From positions 15,525,151 through 15,589,150 of the forward strand of contig NC_045143.1 in NCBI RefSeq assembly GCF_008831285.2: 64,000 nucleotides of DNA, written 5' to 3'. Made by a program: the position numbers and the translations under genes. The first letter of the stretch is position 1. Every line of letters starts with the position of its first letter. Shown here piece after piece: positions 12,225 through 62,378 of this stretch. The notes under the pieces were generated by a model. The model saw nothing but the letters and a program-made list of their open reading frames with translations, ran no database searches and was not told where the DNA came from. This stretch comes from Nymphaea colorata. Its lineage: Eukaryota > Streptophyta > Magnoliopsida > Nymphaeales > Nymphaeaceae.

Positions 12225-13050
12225 AAAGAAAAACTGAATGAGATAATGTTGTTTGTGTATATTTGTATACATGTCGATCATATGGATATAACATGGATTA
12301 GACAATACTATTGTCTCACACATATATATTTCAATTATATAAATATATCATAGATAAGATCATGTTGTTCTATGACAATTATATGGATATATCGTAGATG
12401 AGATAACGTTGTTTTACACACATATATATGACAGTCACATAGATAATAAATGAGATAATTATATTCTTACACATATATTTATGACAATCATATGGTTATA
12501 TTAGAGATAAAATATTATCGTTTTTGTTCTCATATATATGACAATCATATACATATAACAAAGATGAGATAATATTGTTTTTACATGAATATATATGACA
12601 ACCATATAAATATATCAGGAATGAAATAATATTGTTCTTGCTTGAATGTATATAACAATCATATAGATAAATCAGAGATGAGATAATATTGTTCTTACAT
12701 GAATATATATGACAACCATATGGATATATCAGTGATGAGATAGATATATCAGTGATGAGATAAGACTGTTCTTATACATATATATATTACAATTATATGG
12801 TTATATTATGGATGAGATAATACGATTGTTACACACATATATATGACAATCTTATGGATATATCATAGATACGATAATACTATTCATACACATATGTATA
12901 TGACAATCATATAGTTATGTCAGAGATAAGATAATATTGTTCTTGTTTGAATATATATAACAATCATATAGATATATCAGATATGAAATAATATTATGTT
13001 TACATAAATATATATGACAACCATATAAATATATCAGAGATGAGACAGTA

Positions 13051-13116
<66 letters not shown>

Positions 13117-13229
13117 ATAGATATATTATGGATAAGATAACACTGTTGTTACATGTATATATATATGATAATCACGTAGATATATCATACATGAGATAAT
13201 CATGACCTTACACACACACACACACAGAT

Positions 13230-13305
<76 letters not shown>

Positions 13306-13620
13306 ATCAAATGGATAGATCCTATATGAGATAATATTGCTCTTGATTGAATATATATGTCAATCATATAAATATATCAGAGATGAGATAATAATGTTCT
13401 TACTTGAATATATATGTCAAACATATAGATATATCAAAAATGAGATAATGCTGCTCTTACTTGAATATATATGACTATCATAAAGATATATCCGAGATGA
13501 GATAATAAGGTTCTTACATAAATATATATGACAACCATACAAACATATGAGAAATGAGATAATATTGTTTTTGTTTGAATATATATTGCAACTATATGGA
13601 TATATCAAAGATGATTCCTT
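12225..13620. repeat. Minisatellite array, unit about 57 bp, roughly 22 copies
   Basis: The motif GATGAGATAATATTGTTCTT followed by an A/T-rich half with ATATATGACAATCATAT and GATATATCAGA recurs every 55-60 bp from about 12.23 to 13.62 kb. I count about 22 variants of GATGAGATAA. Two long (TA)n tracts (13053-13113 and 13232-13301, the latter preceded by (CA)n) interrupt the array. Copies differ by point changes, so the array is not recently homogenised. It is not coding: the open frames across it simply translate the repeat. Confidence 0.9.
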
Positions 13621-42080: not shown

Positions 42081-44140
42081 CAAGCCTCCAAGATTAGGTA
42101 ATTCTTTCCCTCCTTTTTTTTTTCATTTTCAATTTATTTTGTTATTTTGTTATGCATGTTTTAGTTTTCTTTTTGCTTTTAATGTGCTTAGTTTATTCTA
42201 TTTTCTTACTTAGTTCTTAGGTTTTCTTTATTTGCTTTCATAATATTTTAGTTTAGTTTATTTTCTTTCTTAAGATAGATTTAATTTAATGCCTTTAGGA
42301 TAGGCATAGGGGTTAGGTATGCCACTCTCTTCCTTGTTTCCTTCTTTTAAAATGTACGTTTTTGCCTACTTAGTTTTTGCTTAAATCATGCATATAGATA
42401 ATAGCATTTCTTTTATGCTTTCACTTAGTCATGCATTGCACTTGATTACCTTGCACCCACATGCACCTTTGTCAACAACCAGAGCAGGTTATCCTAGTAG
42501 CATACCCTGTGGCATTAGCCCAAGTATGTGAAAAACTGAATCTAGCATGGACCTCATACAAAAACCCTTTCAAAATCATAAATTTCTCTAAAATGTTTTC
42601 AAAATCAACTTCATTTAAATAATTTTAAAAACCCTAGGTCATGTAGGCTTGGAGTCCTACCCTAGTCAAGTTCTCTAAGACCTAGCTCAAACCGGCCTTA
42701 GAGCCAACTACTTGTGAAGCTAATCTCATAATTTGACCTAATCAACCTCCTTAAAACCCCATTCATATTAGATTAATATCATGGGCTACATGATTTTATT
42801 AGGATTAAACTAATCTTTTTCAATTCGGCTTGTCCTAACAAACCTAGTTTAGACAAGACTGGATCCAGTCCTTTTTGACCGGCCTAGGCCAAGTCATCTT
42901 GATCAGATTTGATTAATCTTCAACTTAATATTTAACTGAAAGCTATCTTATTCCAATATGGATCTTGAAAGTAGGATTATGGATTCTAAAAATTAGATCA
43001 TGAATTTTGGATCATAAATCCCAAATTATGGATCTCAAATTATGTATCTTGAATTATGAATTTTCGATCTCAAATCATGGATCTTAGATTTCGGACTTTG
43101 GATTTTAGAATCAAATTTCACATAATGAGTTTTGGTTCATAAACTTTAGTTCAATTACCACATAATCTTACTTGAGTATAGAATTTTGAACCTTGAAATC
43201 CTCAGATTCAAAACTATTCTCTCAGAATTTGGATTTTAGGAGGTCCAATTGTAAATACAAGATCAAATTTACTAGATCTTTGACCTTGGGTTTTGGATCA
43301 TGAGACTGAATTACATGATGTGACATTTTCTGACTTCCTTAATATCTCATTTCAATTTTATAACATAAAATCTCTTGGATCCTGATTACAAGTTTTGGAT
43401 TCAGATTCATTTTCTCCCTAATAGGTCCACGTCCTACACCCAAGAACTAGTAGAGTCCACCTCCAAGTCTATATGACCTAGTTTTGCATGCATCATATTA
43501 GATTTAGAATATGGATTTGCATTTATTGGTGATGATTTAGAGACAAACATACGTCACAATTTATTCTTGTTCATAAGTCTATTTCTAGACCTACTTAGAT
43601 TTTTTATCATGCATGATTTTAAAACTTGAGCAGATTTATCTTTCATAGGTTTTGGACAACATTTAGACTTCCGAAATGAAACATTTAGTCTAATCCTTGG
43701 TCTGATTACCCTGGCAAAGGCATCAACAATGGTCAGACCTTGTATCAATAGGTCAAGTTCTGTCTGTCTTGGATTCCCACACATGGGCAATAGAGGTGAG
43801 TATAGAAATTTCATCTCATATAGTCTTTATGTAAGATGTAAAATTTTACATGCTACAAAAGAGGCAACCGTGAAGAGACTTGTCACTATTTGATTAGCCA
43901 AAACGTTTTAATTTTCTATGTTTTAAATGTTATCCCACCCTTAGAGCCATTTAGGTATCTTCATGGTTCAATGTATGCATATATGTTTTTGATGTGCATT
44001 AGAACTTGGAATTGAGAGAGATTTTCCATGCTTATATAGATGTTTTATACAATGTTTATTTGTCTCATTCATTTTAACCCACATTGCATTAGAGTCAACA
44101 ATTTGTTTAGGGTACTATATTGACTAGGTGAAATAAAACC
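42081..44140. other. No gene recognised, retrotransposon-like low-complexity sequence
   Basis: The segment at about 42960-43110 repeats ATTATGGAT / GGATCTTGAATTATG-type words many times, a pattern seen in untranslated parts of large gypsy elements. Minus-strand frames such as 43554-43814 carry no motif I recognise. Confidence 0.4.
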
Positions 44141-44149
44141 GGATGTTTT

Positions 44150-44960
44150 GTCTCAAAGATATCAAGGTCAAGACATATGCAACCCATGCAAGGTTGTCCC
44201 AATCTGTCATATCCATGAATGGAAGTTGATGATGGGGTATAGTCAGCTTGCCTTATGCTGAATGTGCGGGCTGTCAGCTGTGGACAAATGTTTAAGTTGG
44301 CTCCTCCATCGATTAAGACATGAGAAATTCTATTGCCATGGTTTCGACCACTATATGCAAGGCATTATTATGCAATGTTCCTCTAATTGATAGATCTTGG
44401 TCACAAACATGATCAGACCATTGCAATATAGTCCAAAAGCCCATTTGTGTCCCCAATTAGGGTTAAATTTCTCTCTTTTCTCTCTTTTTGAGATCCCATA
44501 TCTATGACTCTTAATCAACCCGTGTGAGTACTTTATTTGCTTGGTCTGGTTTGTTCATATCTAAACCTTTTATCATGCATGAAAAGCAACCGAAAGAAAT
44601 CCAAGGATGCCTTGTTCCTTTTGTTTGTCTCCATGATCTGATGACCGACTATAGAAGTTGTCCCTTTTTCATGTTTAGGAAAAGGTTTTTTGAGAATGTC
44701 CGACAGTTCACTGATGGCCTTAACAATTTCTTCATCAACTATCTTATACACTATTCTTTAGCACAAGACAATCTTTTGTATCATGCTCTAGAGCACGATG
44801 AAATTTACAAAATTGTTCTTTGTTCTTCTCATCATTGGGTTGGGGGGGATTGGAAACTTTAGGAACAAACAGAGTACCTCTTTCAACCGGCTTTTGCATG
44901 ATTTCCTTGTAACTCTATTTCAAGGGGGTAAACTTTCTGTCATATCCCCATCTAGGATGT
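44150..44960 (-). mobile_element. Ty3/gypsy gag C-terminus and aspartic protease relic (minus strand)
   Basis: Read on the minus strand, 44827-44761 encodes a gag C-terminal knuckle-like motif (FCKFHRALEHDTKDC), and 44340-44150 encodes a retropepsin-like segment with VLIDGGANLNICP. There the usual D-[ST]-G catalytic triplet reads D-G-G. Frames are interrupted, so no protein is made. The corresponding gag N-terminal part lies on the other side of the 44971-46020 insertion. Confidence 0.7.
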
Positions 44961-44962
44961 TA

Positions 44963-44970
44963 GTTCTTAA
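44963..44970. repeat. Left target-site duplication GTTCTTAA
   Basis: GTTCTTAA immediately before the element at 44971 recurs exactly at 46021-46028 after it. Confidence 0.9.
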
Positions 44971-46020
44971 TAGGCCTGGGCATGCCGGCCCGACCTGTTT
45001 AAGGCCCATCGTTTAAGGCACGGATTTGGATACGGTCGGCCCGCTACCCGGCCCGATTATTAACGGGCCGGGCCGGGCCGAGTACCGGGCTGGGTCAAGC
45101 ATGTCCGAGGCCCGACCAGGCCCATTTTGTTAACTCCAGGCCGGGCCGGGGTGGGTCGGGCTCGTTCGATTTTTAATCTTTGTTGTGCTCAAGAATCATT
45201 TTGAAACGGACAACCACCTTTCAACTTAGACTTCTCACCTACTCAAACGAGATTGCAAATGCTGGAAAGGAAAAAGAACTTATAACGTTTGTTCTAAAAG
45301 TGAAACGGCATGACCTGTTGAAAAGTGGACCAAAACCCTAATTCATCCAAAACCCTAGCAGACCAGTTTTCAGAACACACGCAGAGAGAGAGAGAGAGAC
45401 TGAGTGAGAGAGAGAGGAGCGAAAATGTCGATGTCCAAGAGCTCCAAGATGCTGCCATATATAAACTATAGGATGAGGGTGACGATCCACGACGACCGGC
45501 AACTCGTCGGGAAGTTCATGGCCTTCGACTGCCACATGAATCTCGTCCTCGAAGACTGCGAGGAGTTCTGGTGCCTTCCCCCTGTCAAGGGTAAGAAGGA
45601 GGAGCATGAGGATCGTCGAACCCTTGGCCTCGTCCTCCTCCATGGTGAGGAGGTCGTCTCTCTGACCGTCAAGGGCCCTCCCCCTCCCAAAGAATCCCGC
45701 GCCACGTCCGTTGTTGTTGGCGTCAGCCCTGGTGATGGCAATGGCAACGGTGGAGACGGCGACGGCTAACGGCGGCGACGGTGGTCGATGGATAACTCCC
45801 TTTCCAATGAAAAGGGAAAGAGACTTAGGTCGAGTTACCTAAGCACTATCGGGCCCCAACGGGCCCCAATTTATAACTGGGACCCGGCCCGTTTTAATGT
45901 CGGGCCGGGCCAGGCACAACGGGCGAAAGCTCAATGTTAGCAAATCGTGGCCCGGACCAGGGCCCGTTCCGGGCTGGGTACTGAGTACCCGCCGGCGATC
46001 CGTTTTGGTGCCCAGGCCTA
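44971..46020. mobile_element. hAT-like Pack-type transposon (1,050 bp) carrying an SmB gene copy
   Basis: The element starts TAGGCCTGGGCA and ends TGCCCAGGCCTA, a perfect 12-bp terminal inverted repeat, flanked by identical 8-bp direct repeats. Both subterminal regions (about 44980-45170 and 45845-46010) are dense in GGGCCGGGCC / CGGCCCG motifs. Between them lies about 650 bp of unrelated sequence with a leader and SmB reading frame. No transposase is encoded. Eight-bp duplications and short TIRs point to hAT. The host site is a gypsy relic, between its gag and protease regions. Confidence 0.9.
45425..45769 (+). CDS. SMB-like: SmB-like spliceosomal Sm protein copy (114 aa) inside a transposon
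   Basis: SmB is one of seven Sm proteins that ring the Sm site of U1, U2, U4 and U5 snRNAs. The frame opens MSMSKSSKMLPYINYRMRVT, contains an Sm1 motif (GKFMAFDCHMNLVLED) and an Sm2-like motif (LGLVLLHGEEVVSLTVKGPP), then PPPKESRA as in SmB, and diverges into a Gly/Asn/Asp-rich tail. Normal plant SmB has a long Pro/Gly/Met-rich C-terminus (total about 250 aa), so this copy is truncated. The Arg of the Sm2 R-G pair, which contacts RNA, is His here (codon 45641-45643), and other changes include R to C after FMAFD. The frame has no internal stop or frameshift. A plant-like leader with AAACCCTAG and (GA)n precedes the ATG. It could be expressed, but normal Sm function is doubtful. Confidence 0.85.
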   Translation: MSMSKSSKMLPYINYRMRVTIHDDRQLVGKFMAFDCHMNLVLEDCEEFWCLPPVKGKKEEHEDRRTLGLVLLHGEEVVSLTVKGPPPPKESRATSVVVGVSPGDGNGNGGDGDG

Positions 46021-46028
46021 GTTCTTAA
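46021..46028. repeat. Right target-site duplication GTTCTTAA
   Basis: Exact copy of 44963-44970. Confidence 0.9.
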
Positions 46029-47262
46029 TGCTAGTGCTGCTGCTATTGGCTTTGTTTGCAACTCCTTTATTATGCCTTAACATTCTTGAAGGTAGCGGCA
46101 TTGGTTATGATATTAGCAGGAGTATTATGACTTTTGTTGTTCTTCTTATTATCTTTTTTTATGTTTTCTCAGAATAACAACGTCAAAAGTTTCATTTTAA
46201 ATCCTAGCCTCGACATATTCGGATCTCTCAGTGAGATCACTAAAAGATTTAATTGGATTCTTGAAAATAGGGCTCCTTGATGGATACATCAAATTGTTTT
46301 TAATTAACTCCAATGCATGGGACTGAGAGATTGGGTTTCTCATCTTGTTACAAGATGACTGGCAATTCTTAATAAAATCCTGACCTTCACACTAGCCTAT
46401 GCTTCAAATACCATAAGGTGGTGATTGTTGGTGTAGTTTCAACATTCTGAATAAATCTTTTGATATTTGATTACTTTGTCAAAATTCTTTAGTTTTATAG
46501 GGTTAATGTGCTCCCCTACCACTATGCTGCAATTCCTTCTAAGCTTCTAGAGAAGCAAAACAAGAAAGCTGTATGATTGTTATGAAATTCATAACATTCT
46601 GCAAAGTATGATTTCACGTCTCCATGGCTGTCAAATTTGATGAATTTTTTAGGCAAGTTCTTGATGTTATCACTTTTTGAAGCTCTCGTAGAAGTCTTTG
46701 CAAATGAAATTTATTTTATTCTTGCCTTTGAGATGAACTACACACAATTTATTTTCAACTTCCTTGAGTTTTGCTTTCTAGGATCCAGCCTTCTTCTTTT
46801 TCTTGGCAGTCTTTTGCCCTTCCTCACTTTTTGATTTTGCAGTAGTGTCTTTGAAGGAATTAGAACTACTTGAGGAAAATTTCTTTGCCTTCTTCCATTT
46901 CTTTTTAACTTTTTCTGCATGAGTGTACTCTTCAATGAACATGATCATGTACTTCAAGAATTTTCTATATTCCTCATACTCTAGATCATTGTCTCCATCT
47001 TGGGAGACGTGTTGGAGGAGGATTCTTCTCTCTTGTCATTTTCATGAGGTTGTTTTGATTCTATCTCTAATCTTCCTTTTTGTTGATTTCTTGTTTCCAC
47101 CATAAAGAGGATGTTTACCTTGTGAGGAAAAAAACTGAAGATGTTAAAATTTGATATGACGAGACATCATCTGCAGAGATGATAAATTGAAAAAAATGAC
47201 AAATTTGATTGTATATTGCAAGGAGAATGATATTGATAAGACTTGACAAAGTTTGACAATAC
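46029..47262 (-). mobile_element. Ty3/gypsy gag relic (minus strand), upstream part
   Basis: On the minus strand, about 46655-46530 reads KFIKFDSHGDVKSYFAECYE and continues to SRSLEGIAA, which is the gag core (kFdG.GDp..y...y........ll..F..sL.G.A). A stop follows where the Trp-rich part begins. Upstream is a lysine-rich coding-like segment (46935-46740). The gag continues beyond the hAT insertion at 44960 and below. Confidence 0.65.
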
Positions 47263-47840
47263 TTGACAAAACTTGACAAAGGTTGACTAAATTAGACTAC
47301 ATCATTCGAACTAAACATGACCATCTAGAACAGAAGGATAGATGGCTGGACTTTCTTTCACTATTTTACATATTCCAGACTCATGCTTGGACCAAGGGCA
47401 AGGTACAAATGGGCATATGATTCCCAACATTATTAGACACGAGTGTATATTCCAAACAATTCTTTGGTATCTAGTTCACACTCCATAATGAATCCTTCGG
47501 ATTCAATTTTATAGGCATTTATGTTTGAGTCTACTCTCTATTGAACATGATAATGTACTTTGAGAATTTTTTGTATTCATGTGCATTGAATCATTGTTAG
47601 CATCTTGGGAGACATGTTGGAAGAGCATCCTTCTCTCTTGTCACTTGCATGAGGTTGTTCCGTTTTCCATTTTCAATCTTTTCTTTTGTAGGTTTTTTGT
47701 TTCTACCATAAAGAGAATGTCTACCTTGTGAGAAGAAAAATTGAAGACGTCAGAATTTGATATGATGAGAGATAATTTGCACAAATGATAAATTGAAGAA
47801 AATGACAATTTTCATTACATATTACAAGGAGAATGATATT
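46971..47840. repeat. Direct duplication of a ~290-bp segment
   Basis: The segment at about 46971-47262 (TTCCTCATACTCTAGATCAT ... CTTGGGAGACGTGTTGGA ... CATAAAGAGGATGTTTACCT ... ACAAGGAGAATGATATT) recurs with changes at about 47560-47840. It lies in the 5' gag region of the minus-strand gypsy relic. The middle, 47262-47560, holds a short GACAAAACTTGACAAA repeat (47246-47290). Confidence 0.75.
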
Positions 47841-48241
47841 AACATGACTTAACAAATGGGCAAATGCTTCCCACCATTGTTGGGTGTGGGTGTATATTCC
47901 AGACCATTCTTCAGTATCCAGTTCACACTCCACAATGGCTCCTTGTGATTCAATTTTGTAGGCATTTCATTGACGTTGCTAGAATTGTCTAATGCAATGC
48001 TTTGGATGATAGTCAACTATGACAAATGGTCCCAATAAAAGGTTTCCTCTAACTGGTTGCAAGTGTATCTAGACTTAGTGATTTGTCTATCAAAGAAGTC
48101 TCAAATGTTGATAGAATCGTCCACTTCATCCATGTTCCCACAGTAATGCTTCACACTAGATAACCGGCCATTGGTATCTAAAAAATGACATAATTATGGT
48201 CCCACATGCTTGTAGAACTATGACTGCAATGCGAAGATATA

Positions 48242-58502: not shown

Positions 58503-61500
58503 ATGGATTATTTGGGGCGTATTAAGGCCGTCGCAGACCAACTTGCTGCCTCAGGGAATAACATTTCTGATAAGGAAAAGGTGCAACAAACCTTGAATGG
58601 ACTTGGGCATGATTATCATGCTTTTATTACAGCTCTTGAGGTCCTTCCTGTTCTACCTTCATTCAACGAACTACAAGGTAAACTTCTCCAACATGAAATG
58701 AATATGAAAAGAGTCATTGAAAGGACTGATCAAGGGAACTCCCAAAATGTGTTGGCTATGAATGTAAAGTTTGGTAAGAGCCATGGGAACTCCAACCATG
58801 GTGGTCGTGGCATTCTACCAACACCACATAACCAAGGTATGTCTTCTTTGGATACTTCAAGAAAAATACCAATTTGTTTTCAGTGCAACAAGAAAGGACA
58901 CATGAAGGCACAATGTTGGTTTAATCCTCAAAATAAAAACAAAGGGGTAAGACATGATCATAAACAAGGAGGACAAAGTTCTAAATCCACCGCTGAAGAT
59001 ATGCAACAACTATTGATGACCGCATTCTCAAAGATGACTATAAAGCAAAATGAGCAGGGAGAATGGTTCTTGGATTCAGGTGCAGCTACCCATGTGACAG
59101 GAAATGCAAGTAAATTGACTAACTTATCCCCTCATTACGGTAGAAGTTGCATTATAACGGGTGATGGAAAATCTCATCCTATTACACATATTGGAAATGC
59201 ACATATTCCATTGTCATCCTCGTCTCTATCACTGTCTAATGTTGTTCTTCCTCCCAATATCAAAAAGAACATCATATCCATTTCTAAACTCATTGATGAT
59301 ACAAGCTCTTCTGTTGAATTCACACCTTCTTCTGTCTATGTCAATGACCTCCAAACGAAGAAAATGTTCGCTAGAGGGGAGCGTCAAGGGAATATGTACG
59401 TCCTCAAGGAATGTCTACCCAAGGATTCCTCCACTTTTGATATAGGATTGAAGACATTTTCTCTTTCTCATAATGCGTCATCAGTGCCAAGTTCTTGCCA
59501 TTTTCAATCAAAAGTAAGGGGCCCTAACCAATTTTTGGAGTCTGATTTGTGGCATAGTCGGCTAGGACACTGTGGTCGACATTTCATTGAAAAACTTGTC
59601 ACAGATAGTCTCATTCCAAGATCAAGTTTATCTCTTACTTCAAGTGTCAAAAAATGTTCAAGTTGTGGGCTTTGTAAGAGTCATGTTTTACCTTTCCATA
59701 ATATAAATCAAAGGGCTTCCAAACCTTTTGAAACTATTTTTTCTGATGTATGGGGGCCAGCCCCTATTGATTCCATGTCTGGGTCAAGATATTATATCTT
59801 ATTCATTGACTCTTACTCACGTTTCACCTGGATTTACTTCATGAAACACAAATCAGAAGTACCTCACATATTTCGAAACTTCTATGCCATGATTCAAACT
59901 AAATTTTCATCCAATGTGGTGCATTTTCAATGTGATGGAGGGGGAGAATATTTCTCGCTTGATTTTATTGAATTTCTACGTGAAAAAGGGATAACTAGAC
60001 AAATTTCCTGCCCTTACACACCACAACAAAATGGTGTAGTTGAGCGAAAACATCGACATGTAGTTGAAAGCGCCATGAGCATGATGCATGATACTAATGT
60101 GCCCATTTCCTTGTGGACTGAAGCCTTCCATACTGCTGTATACATAATAAATTGTTTGCCTATGACACTCTTGATGTCTAAATCGCCATATTTTACACTC
60201 TTAGGCAAACAACGTGATTACAAGAACTTGAAGATTTTTTGTTGTGTATGCTATGTTCACGTTGATGCTGCCTTGAGGAACAAGTTTCAAGACAAAGCTA
60301 TTCAATGTAGATTCGTTGGATATGCTGATGAATATAAAGGTTTTCGATGCTATGATCCAACAACTAAACGTATCAAAACTTCAAGAAATGTCATTTTTGA
60401 TGAACATAGTTTTGATAATACAAATGAAATGCCTATGACCATTGAATCTTATTATCCCTGGACCAGTACACAGTTATTCAATGCAGATCCTGTTATAGAA
60501 AATGATGTGCCTCAAAGTGAAGATTCAGAGAGAGCAATACAACTGTCGGATATGGCTCAAAGTGAAAATCAAGAAGATCCAACACAGTCATCAAGTCATC
60601 ACGAAAACAATAATGAAGAACAGAGCAACGATGCACATCGGTATTCGGGTCTTATCTACAGTCGACGACTAAGGGACATAGATGCTCACAGTGAAGAAGA
60701 CAACATGCCCCATCTTAGAAGATCCCAACGCATTCGTCATCCCATTCACAGGTGGGTTAGCTATGATTCTTTATCACTTGATTTTCAGTTATTCATGGCA
60801 AAAGTTGGCAAGGAGGAAGAACCTACTTCATTTGATCAAGCATCAAAATCACATCATTGGAGAAAGGCTATGAAAGAAAAAATGGATGCCTTGCATGAAT
60901 GTGGAACATGGGAGATCGTTCTGAGGCCACACGAAAAGAACGTAGTGGGCTCCAAATGGGTATACAAAATTAAATACAAACCTGACGGCAGCATAGAAAG
61001 ACACAAACCAAGGTTAGTAGCAAAAGGGTTTACACAACAATATGGAGAAGATTATGATGAGACATTCAGCCCTGTGATCAAAATAGGAACAATTCGCGTG
61101 ATTATATCATTGGTAGTTGAATATGGATGGAGACTACATCAAATGGACGTGAAGAATGCTTTTCTTCATGGTGATTTAAGGGAGGAAGTATATATGGAAC
61201 AACCTCCAGGATACACGAAAGGAGACTCTCATGCATGGGTTTGCAAACTAAGAAAATCTATTTATGGACTTAAACAGGCCTCATGTTCGTGGTTTGACAG
61301 TTTCTCTTGCAAGATTCAAGAATGTGGTTTTCGGAGATGTCCTCTAGATCACTCTCTTTTCATTTATCGAAAGAAAAACATATTTACTTTACTTCTTATA
61401 TATGTTGATGATATTGTTATCACATGCAATTCAGAAAAACACATAGAAGAAGCTAAAGTTTTGATGATGCAAAACTTCAAAATGAAAGAGCTTTATGATT

Positions 61501-62378
61501 TACGATTCTTTCTTGGAGTGGAGATTGATAGGCACAATAATCGCCTCACATTGACACAACAGAAATACACGTTGGATCTGCTGAAAAAGTCAAGTATGTC
61601 TGATTGTAAGCCTGTTGGAACTCCTAGTGTTCTAAATCAAAGACTAAGTGCTCAAGATGGGGAGTTATATGAAGATCCTACGCAATATCGAAGTATTGTT
61701 GGGGCACTTCAATATCTTACATTTACTAGACCAGATATTATATATGCTGTGAATCAAGTATCTCAATTTATGCATGCACCTAGATATACTCACATGGATG
61801 CTGTCAAAAGAATATTAAGATATCTTAAAGGGACAGCAGGAGATGACTTAGTTTATGGTAAGAGTGAAAATATAACTACTGGACATCAACTTATGACATT
61901 CACAGATGCAGATTGGGCTAGAGATCCCGTTCAAAGAAAGTCCATTTCTGGTTTTTGTATTTTCATTGGACGTAATCTTGTGTCTTAGAGTTGTCGAAAG
62001 CAAAAGGCAGTAGCAAGATCCAGCACTGAAGCTGAATACAGATGCATGGTTGCAGGTACTGCTGAAGTTACATGGGTTAGACATTTGCTAGAAGACATTG
62101 GAGAAAAGATTAAAACATCAATGTTAATGTGCGATAATCAAAGTGCTATTAACATTGCCTTTAATCCTGTACAACATGGTCGAACAAAGCACATTGAGAT
62201 TGATCAACACTTTGTTAGACAAAAGGTGGAAGACAAGGAGATTCAGCCTATTTATGTTCGTACAGATGAACAAGTTGCAGACTTATTTACAAAAGGATTA
62301 ACAAAGGAACGATTCTGGTTTCTAAAAGGCAAGTTGTACATGGTGCAAAACCATGCACAACTTGAGGGAGAGTGTTAA
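58503..62378 (+). pseudogene. Ty1/copia gag-pol polyprotein, 5'-truncated, one in-frame stop
   Basis: A single frame of 1,161 codons, then a TAG at 61986-61988, then the same frame on to 62378. Domains in order are gag (UBN2-like; N-terminal ~100 residues missing), a CCHC zinc knuckle (CFQCNKKGHMKAQCW, from about residue 125), aspartic protease (DSG at about 191-193), and integrase with an HHCC zinc site and the DDE core (QNGVVERKH block). Reverse transcriptase follows (QMDVKNAFLHGD, then YVDD at about residue 966), then RNase H (TDADWARD, then SSTEAEY and CDNQSA after the stop). The stop replaces the tryptophan of the usual V-S-W in RNase H, a one-base change. No frameshift is present, so the copy is young. 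The coding region lacks its start and the element lacks a 5' LTR. Confidence 0.9.
61986..61988 (+). other. Premature TAG in copia RNase H
   Basis: The codon follows GRNLVS and precedes SCRKQKAVARSSTEAEY. The conserved residue at this place in copia RNase H is Trp (TGG), so a single G-to-A change explains it. The downstream 130 codons remain open in the same frame. Confidence 0.85.

Follow-up and report, generated by a model that had tools for sequence, protein, structure and literature searches.

The window analyzed here is a 64,000-nucleotide stretch of the Nymphaea colorata genome (G000:C6:15525151-15589150), and searches beyond it covered the 407.8-Mb assembly. At positions 44971-46020 of the window lies an element of 1,050 bp bounded by perfect 12-bp terminal inverted repeats (TIRs; TAGGCCTGGGCA), with the 8-bp target-site duplication (TSD) GTTCTTAA present in identical form at 44963-44970 and 46021-46028. 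When pairs spaced 200-4000 bp apart were scanned with low-complexity ends removed, this was the sole perfect 12-bp TIR plus 8-bp TSD pair in the window, and none of 30 local shuffles contained any such pair, in support of the inverted ends and duplication noted in the preliminary description; without the low-complexity filter, the scan also returned very many TA-repeat pairs. The TIR word alone, at up to two mismatches, is unremarkable in the window (four matches versus 2.13 expected). The G+C fraction of the element is 0.56, compared with only 0.35 and 0.34 in the A+T-rich 2-kb flanks, and both of its ends show a concentration of GGCCCG/CGGGCC words.

The hAT-family left end (44971-45324, plus strand) was aligned to two defective hAT copies with transposase-frame fragments, L036 (element positions 1-219 and 277-354) and L045 (element positions 56-354), and comprises the TIR (44971-44982), a GGCCCG/CGGGCC-rich subterminal part and then A+T-richer internal hAT sequence. 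A 5-bp filler, GTGGA (45325-45329), separates the end of these alignments at element position 354 from the start of similarity to an SmB gene at position 360, and clear microhomology is absent from this left junction. The captured SmB block follows (403 bp; 45330-45732, plus strand), overlapped by an open SmB-like frame of 114 codons (45425-45766, plus strand; stop codon 45767-45769). The hAT-family right end (45733-46020, plus strand) is closed by the inverted 12-bp TIR at 46009-46020; it was assigned by alignment at 45755-45797, which contains the stop codon of the frame, and at 45796-46020, with L036 matching element positions 785-827 and 826-1032. The 22 bp at element positions 763-784 (45733-45754) have no significant match, and their location and repeat-like resemblance were the sole grounds for placing them in the hAT sequence.

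The left flank is part of a high-copy repeat, the copies of which, among the best 40 of 233 candidates, were 76-77% identical. When the two flanks were joined with a single TSD copy, the joined sequence gave 30 alignments that cross the site, at 71-74% identity; together they represent every one of the 29 loci examined, and 29 of the 30 span the whole 800 bp. At each of these 29 loci, which represent paralogous and not orthologous empty sites, the 8 bp occurs once, as GTTTTTGG or GTTTTTAG. Because the empty paralogous sites carry a single copy, the target pre-existed the element and the 8 bp was duplicated on insertion, as the flanking repeats had been taken to indicate. Within the host repeat, two minus-strand frames (44110-44364 and 44744-44899) resemble by eye an LTR-retrotransposon protease and a gag zinc knuckle; an LTR-retrotransposon identity for 44110-44899 was not adopted, with Pfam returning no family for either frame, and the flanking host sequence is described here only as a high-copy repeat. 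Elsewhere in the window, a stop-free Copia-type frame of 1,161 codons with RVT_2, rve, gag_pre-integrs and Retrotran_gag_2 domains lies at 58503-61988 (plus strand), direct repeats with 82-87% identity lie approximately 606 bp apart at 46985-47250 and 47590-47856, and at 12371-13614 a TA-rich stretch is surrounded by tandem arrays whose periods are 57 bp and multiples of it.

A six-frame genome search with the 114-residue frame identified three places, namely, the element itself, a locus on C9 (L002) and a locus on C10 (L003), so that one SmB-carrying copy of the element was found by this search. L002 contains an uninterrupted frame of 276 codons beginning at the same start codon and including the proline-rich SmB tail, and L003 is a second SmB gene with an uninterrupted frame of the same kind. 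Element positions 360-762 (45330-45732) match L002 positions 1406-1808 without gaps, at 368 of 403 bases (91% identity, 35 mismatches), while the identity of L003 to the block is 80%. These results confirm that an SmB copy was captured and identify the intact gene on C9 as its parent. The block consists of 95 bp 5' of the ATG followed by 102 codons plus 2 nt, all from a part of the parent that is a single uninterrupted exon; no match to the parent was found elsewhere in the element at an E value of 0.01 or better when 10 kb around the parent was searched. The "plant-like leader" reported earlier can now be specified as the 95 bp that precede the start codon of the parent gene. Six of its nine mismatches (positions 71-80) fall inside a GA repeat and, on reading, seem to reflect compensating changes in repeat length, so the statement that the copy lacks indels is safe for the codons but less so for the whole 403 bp.

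The frame at 45425-45766 matched the Pfam LSM family (4.3e-14), and its best match in the PDB was an Sm domain protein (1.7e-36), with human SmB chains next. Both Sm motifs are recognizable, as described earlier, and neither a stop codon nor a frameshift occurs within the codons. The reported 114-codon SmB-like frame stands as an SmB relative by these matches, but only 102 of its codons derive from SmB and the final 12 do not. Its stop codon lies in a stretch aligned to L036 (38 of 43 bases identical), which has the same TAA, and the frame is therefore a chimera of 102 SmB codons, 12 others and a transposon stop. It ends 12 codons past the Sm part, while the parent extends to 276 codons. The arginine corresponding by alignment to R73 of human SmB, in the "RG" of Sm2, is histidine in the element, which bears out the reported loss of this residue; thus, two features of functional SmB, the conserved Sm2 arginine and the full-length tail, are both missing from the element frame.

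A DNA search of the genome for elements with related sequence yielded at least 59 family matches from the best 40 of 249 candidates, and since 40 of the 249 were scored, the family is larger than this count. Of 20 places fetched, 13 possessed both ends and an 8-bp TSD (at most three TIR mismatches per end and at most two TSD mismatches; 10 of the 13 without any TSD mismatch), and in 7 this combination was not found. Two of the 13, L037 (5,362 bp) and L038 (5,372 bp), are 99.3% identical to each other and share the TIR of the element, with one C/T difference at one end, as well as its subterminal sequence. Both contain Dimer_Tnp_hAT (2.3e-28 and 5.4e-30, respectively) and hAT-like_RNase-H domains, with zf-BED additionally in L038. 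The TIR shared with these transposase-coding copies, together with the 8-bp TSD, substantiates the assignment of the element to the hAT type. L037:1402-6763 (C1) and L038:1433-6804 (C2) hold long transposase frames between perfect 8-bp TSDs, and judged by their sequences the two are recently active. Their transposase is on the minus strand where the SmB piece is oriented plus, so the block, which occupies the hAT interior, lies antisense to the transposase.

The remaining 11 both-ended members measure 0.67-1.09 kb, and the family includes relatives of approximately 1 kb that have no transposase domains. In a Pfam scan of eight frames from seven short relatives, six matched nothing. The frame of L041 matched PUNUT (purine transport) at 7.8e-34, above the curated cut-off; this member (L041:525-1416, C10) has perfect TIRs and a TSD, and its PUNUT frame is stop-free over 243 codons. 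It is probably a second captured gene within the same hAT family, and this purine-permease-like frame makes it probable that gene capture took place in the family on more than one occasion. The frame of L047 showed a weak match to the short-chain dehydrogenase family adh_short_C2 (2.2e-4), below the curated cut-off. L047:513-1528 (C3) and L048:591-1601 (C9) are 1-kb members with 99.1% identity and different TSDs. An alpha/beta hydrolase reading of the L055 frame, made by eye, was discarded, as Pfam matched nothing there.

We then compared the SmB codons of the element with those of the two genes. The element and L002 have different codons at 25 of the 102 positions, with an amino acid replacement at 17 and a silent difference at 8, and at all 17 replaced positions L003 retains the parental residue. 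The silent changes at codons 7, 20 and 70 belong to the L002 branch because they are shared with L003. The element branch carries 23 substitutions, spread over 17 codons with a replacement and 5 with a silent change. A three-sequence codon model gave an element-branch omega of 0.72, with a profile interval from approximately 0.25 to more than 12 (unbounded), and omega fixed at 1 was not rejected (2dlnL 0.18, p 0.67). By comparison, a single omega on all branches was rejected (2dlnL 43), as was, for the element branch, the level of approximately 0.005 found on the SmB gene branches. The pairwise NG86 dN/dS of 0.54 lies below 1 and to that extent speaks against neutrality, but it was not taken as a verdict because it mixes the element branch with the constrained branch of the parent. 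Hence, the dN/dS comparison proposed at the outset gave a value compatible with neutrality, while omega as low as approximately 0.25 falls within the interval, and weak constraint at that level on the SmB codons is possible.

In neutral simulations with 23 substitutions under four mutation schemes, 14.7-15.6 replacement codons and 4.8-6.0 silent codons were obtained, and 55-59% of runs were stop-free (substitutions only, no indels, 102 codons). Across the block, the minus strand also has a 166-codon stretch without a stop, which indicates that openness of a frame is cheap here. No indels occur in the 102 codons (306 bp), which speaks against neutral decay; the probability of this outcome is 0.10 over 23 substitutions at an assumed ratio of 0.1 indels per substitution, and at the same ratio 0.45 with 15 CG/CHG deaminations set aside as sped up by methylation. 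Of the 48 invariant SmB positions 5 were replaced, and of the 40 variable ones 7, a slightly lower frequency at invariant positions that is not significant (p 0.37); the other replacements fall outside the 88 aligned positions. The invariant residues replaced include R49, R61, R73 and E83.

Mutation context within the 403-bp block was scored as deamination-type changes, i.e., C>T or G>A from parent to element. These were found at 10 of 62 CG, 5 of 39 CHG and 3 of 131 CHH sites (CG versus CHH, p 0.0008; CHG versus CHH, p 0.016), and every one of the 10 CG and 5 CHG changes falls within codons. A CG/CHG deamination spectrum is the pattern expected of methylated transposon DNA. CG deamination accounts for 9 and CHG deamination for 4 of the 18 replacement base changes, and all five arginine losses (R36C, R49W, R50C, R61H and R73H) are of the CG type. 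The altered key residues pointed out earlier are thus present, but as a sign of retention they carry little, being mostly of the CpG/CHG deamination type; loss of the key arginine is uninformative on retention because CpG deamination does this to CGN codons. At general substitution rates of 6.5e-9 to 1.3e-8 per site per year, 23 changes would amount to approximately 6-12 million years, or to a shorter time if methylated sites mutate faster. Functional retention was considered against the codon model, the neutral simulations, the conserved-versus-variable positions and the mutation context, none of which was supportive. Altogether, the results suggest that the SmB copy is most likely decaying about neutrally, and the earlier proposal that the frame was kept for a dominant-negative or regulatory role is not upheld, since omega of 1 is not rejected and an open frame is expected in 55-59% of neutral runs.

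We conclude, with a probability of roughly 0.88, that the element is a non-autonomous Pack-TYPE hAT element (Pack-hAT) with a gene fragment that is decaying about neutrally. The features of a Pack-TYPE element are present: a host-gene fragment, relatives with the same ends and other or no cargo, and no transposase-like frame among the element's open reading frames of at least 50 amino acids (by reading, with Pfam applied to the SmB frame only). Its interior, where relatives hold transposase sequence, consists instead of an internal 403-bp piece of the host SmB gene, which would have been either copied in through template switching in the course of repair or replication, or brought in by fusion of neighboring insertions. 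A search of the 10 kb surrounding the parent genes found no TIR-like word (GGCCTGGGC), and an origin from neighboring insertions is therefore not visible at the present parent locus. Transposase of L037/L038-like relatives may have mobilized the element in trans; its insertion into the high-copy repeat duplicated 8 bp. The SmB codons then changed at a pace that fits a lack of constraint, mainly through CG/CHG changes of the deamination type. The element was presumably cytosine methylated, and the SmB frame would be a pseudogene fragment that is open by chance.

Three other readings were weighed against this one. It is very improbable that the frame is kept as a protein, i.e., a truncated SmB without the proline-rich tail and the Sm2 arginine that acts as a dominant-negative or specialized Sm subunit. 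A start codon, an intact frame with both Sm motifs recognizable, the lack of indels in the coding sequence and an interval that includes omega below 1 would all fit such a protein, but the element omega does not conflict with a value of 1 and greatly exceeds the level of approximately 0.005 in the genes, invariant residues are replaced about as freely as variable ones, and the C-terminal 12 codons and stop are a junction accident. Moreover, the capture reaches no farther than 95 bp 5' of the ATG, which makes it unlikely that the element contains a full SmB promoter. Equally small is the chance that the SmB piece arose through RNA, as a retrocopy inserted into a hAT element, instead of by DNA capture. 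The parent sequence in the block comes from a single exon without interruption, as a retrocopy would allow, and for that very reason intron loss is uninformative on this point; the piece, however, is an internal fragment without a 3' end or poly(A), and it lies exactly between the left and right hAT parts, with the transposase region missing.

Action through RNA, with antisense transcription from the transposase-promoter side or siRNAs from the block tuning parental SmB, is quite unlikely. The piece is antisense to the L037/L038 transposase and 91% identical to its parent over 403 bp, and according to a review, siRNAs that target donor genes can arise from the gene fragments in maize Helitrons, Pack-MULEs and Sireviruses (PMC13317346). 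Against this, a single SmB-bearing copy sits in a high-copy repeat, 35 mismatches in 403 bp limit perfect complementarity, and the same review expects selection to protect essential donors (PMC13317346). Taking both routes to function together, we give little credence to a block that is in use, with antisense or siRNA output or a truncated R73H Sm protein modulating parental SmB or snRNP assembly. If this were true, a core spliceosome gene would be the target of a Pack-hAT element, and control of the core splicing machinery would thereby be tied to a transposon, but regulation of SmB by the element is required by nothing found here. The Pack-hAT reading with neutral decay instead offers a clean worked example in which one genome displays the parent gene, relatives both defective and with transposase, the empty sites and the spectrum of decay, and it cautions that retention should not be deduced from an open frame, however striking its residue changes.

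Rice Pack-MULEs carry captured gene fragments that are mostly decaying. The element described here likewise contains a captured gene fragment, most likely in decay; unlike Pack-MULEs, which have Mutator ends and longer TIRs, it has hAT ends, a 12-bp TIR and an 8-bp TSD. Pack-hAT elements with 8-bp TSDs have been described in maize and rice (PMC8903248), and our element resembles them in being a short non-autonomous hAT with matching TIRs, an 8-bp TSD, conserved ends and an interior coding fragment. It differs from those elements in that the SmB-bearing member is single-copy, its frame is open from the start codon of the parent to a stop in hAT sequence, and its family was defined by relatives in the same genome rather than by the TIR set of the paper (PMC8903248). 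Gisby and Catoni (2022) argued for fusion of neighboring insertions in the origin of Pack-TYPE elements (PMC8903248), whereas single-copy Pack-TIR cases in animals are explained in another study by gap filling with template switching (PMC8277862). The latter elements, hAT included, share with ours the arrangement of hAT ends around copied gene sequence (PMC8277862), but they are found in animal genomes, and here a 5-bp filler rather than clear microhomology marks the left junction. The commonest fate of captured genes, according to the review cited above, is pseudogenization or loss (PMC13317346). Altogether, the element belongs to the already known Pack-hAT kind, and the one unusual feature of its SmB cargo is a frame that reads open from its own start codon.
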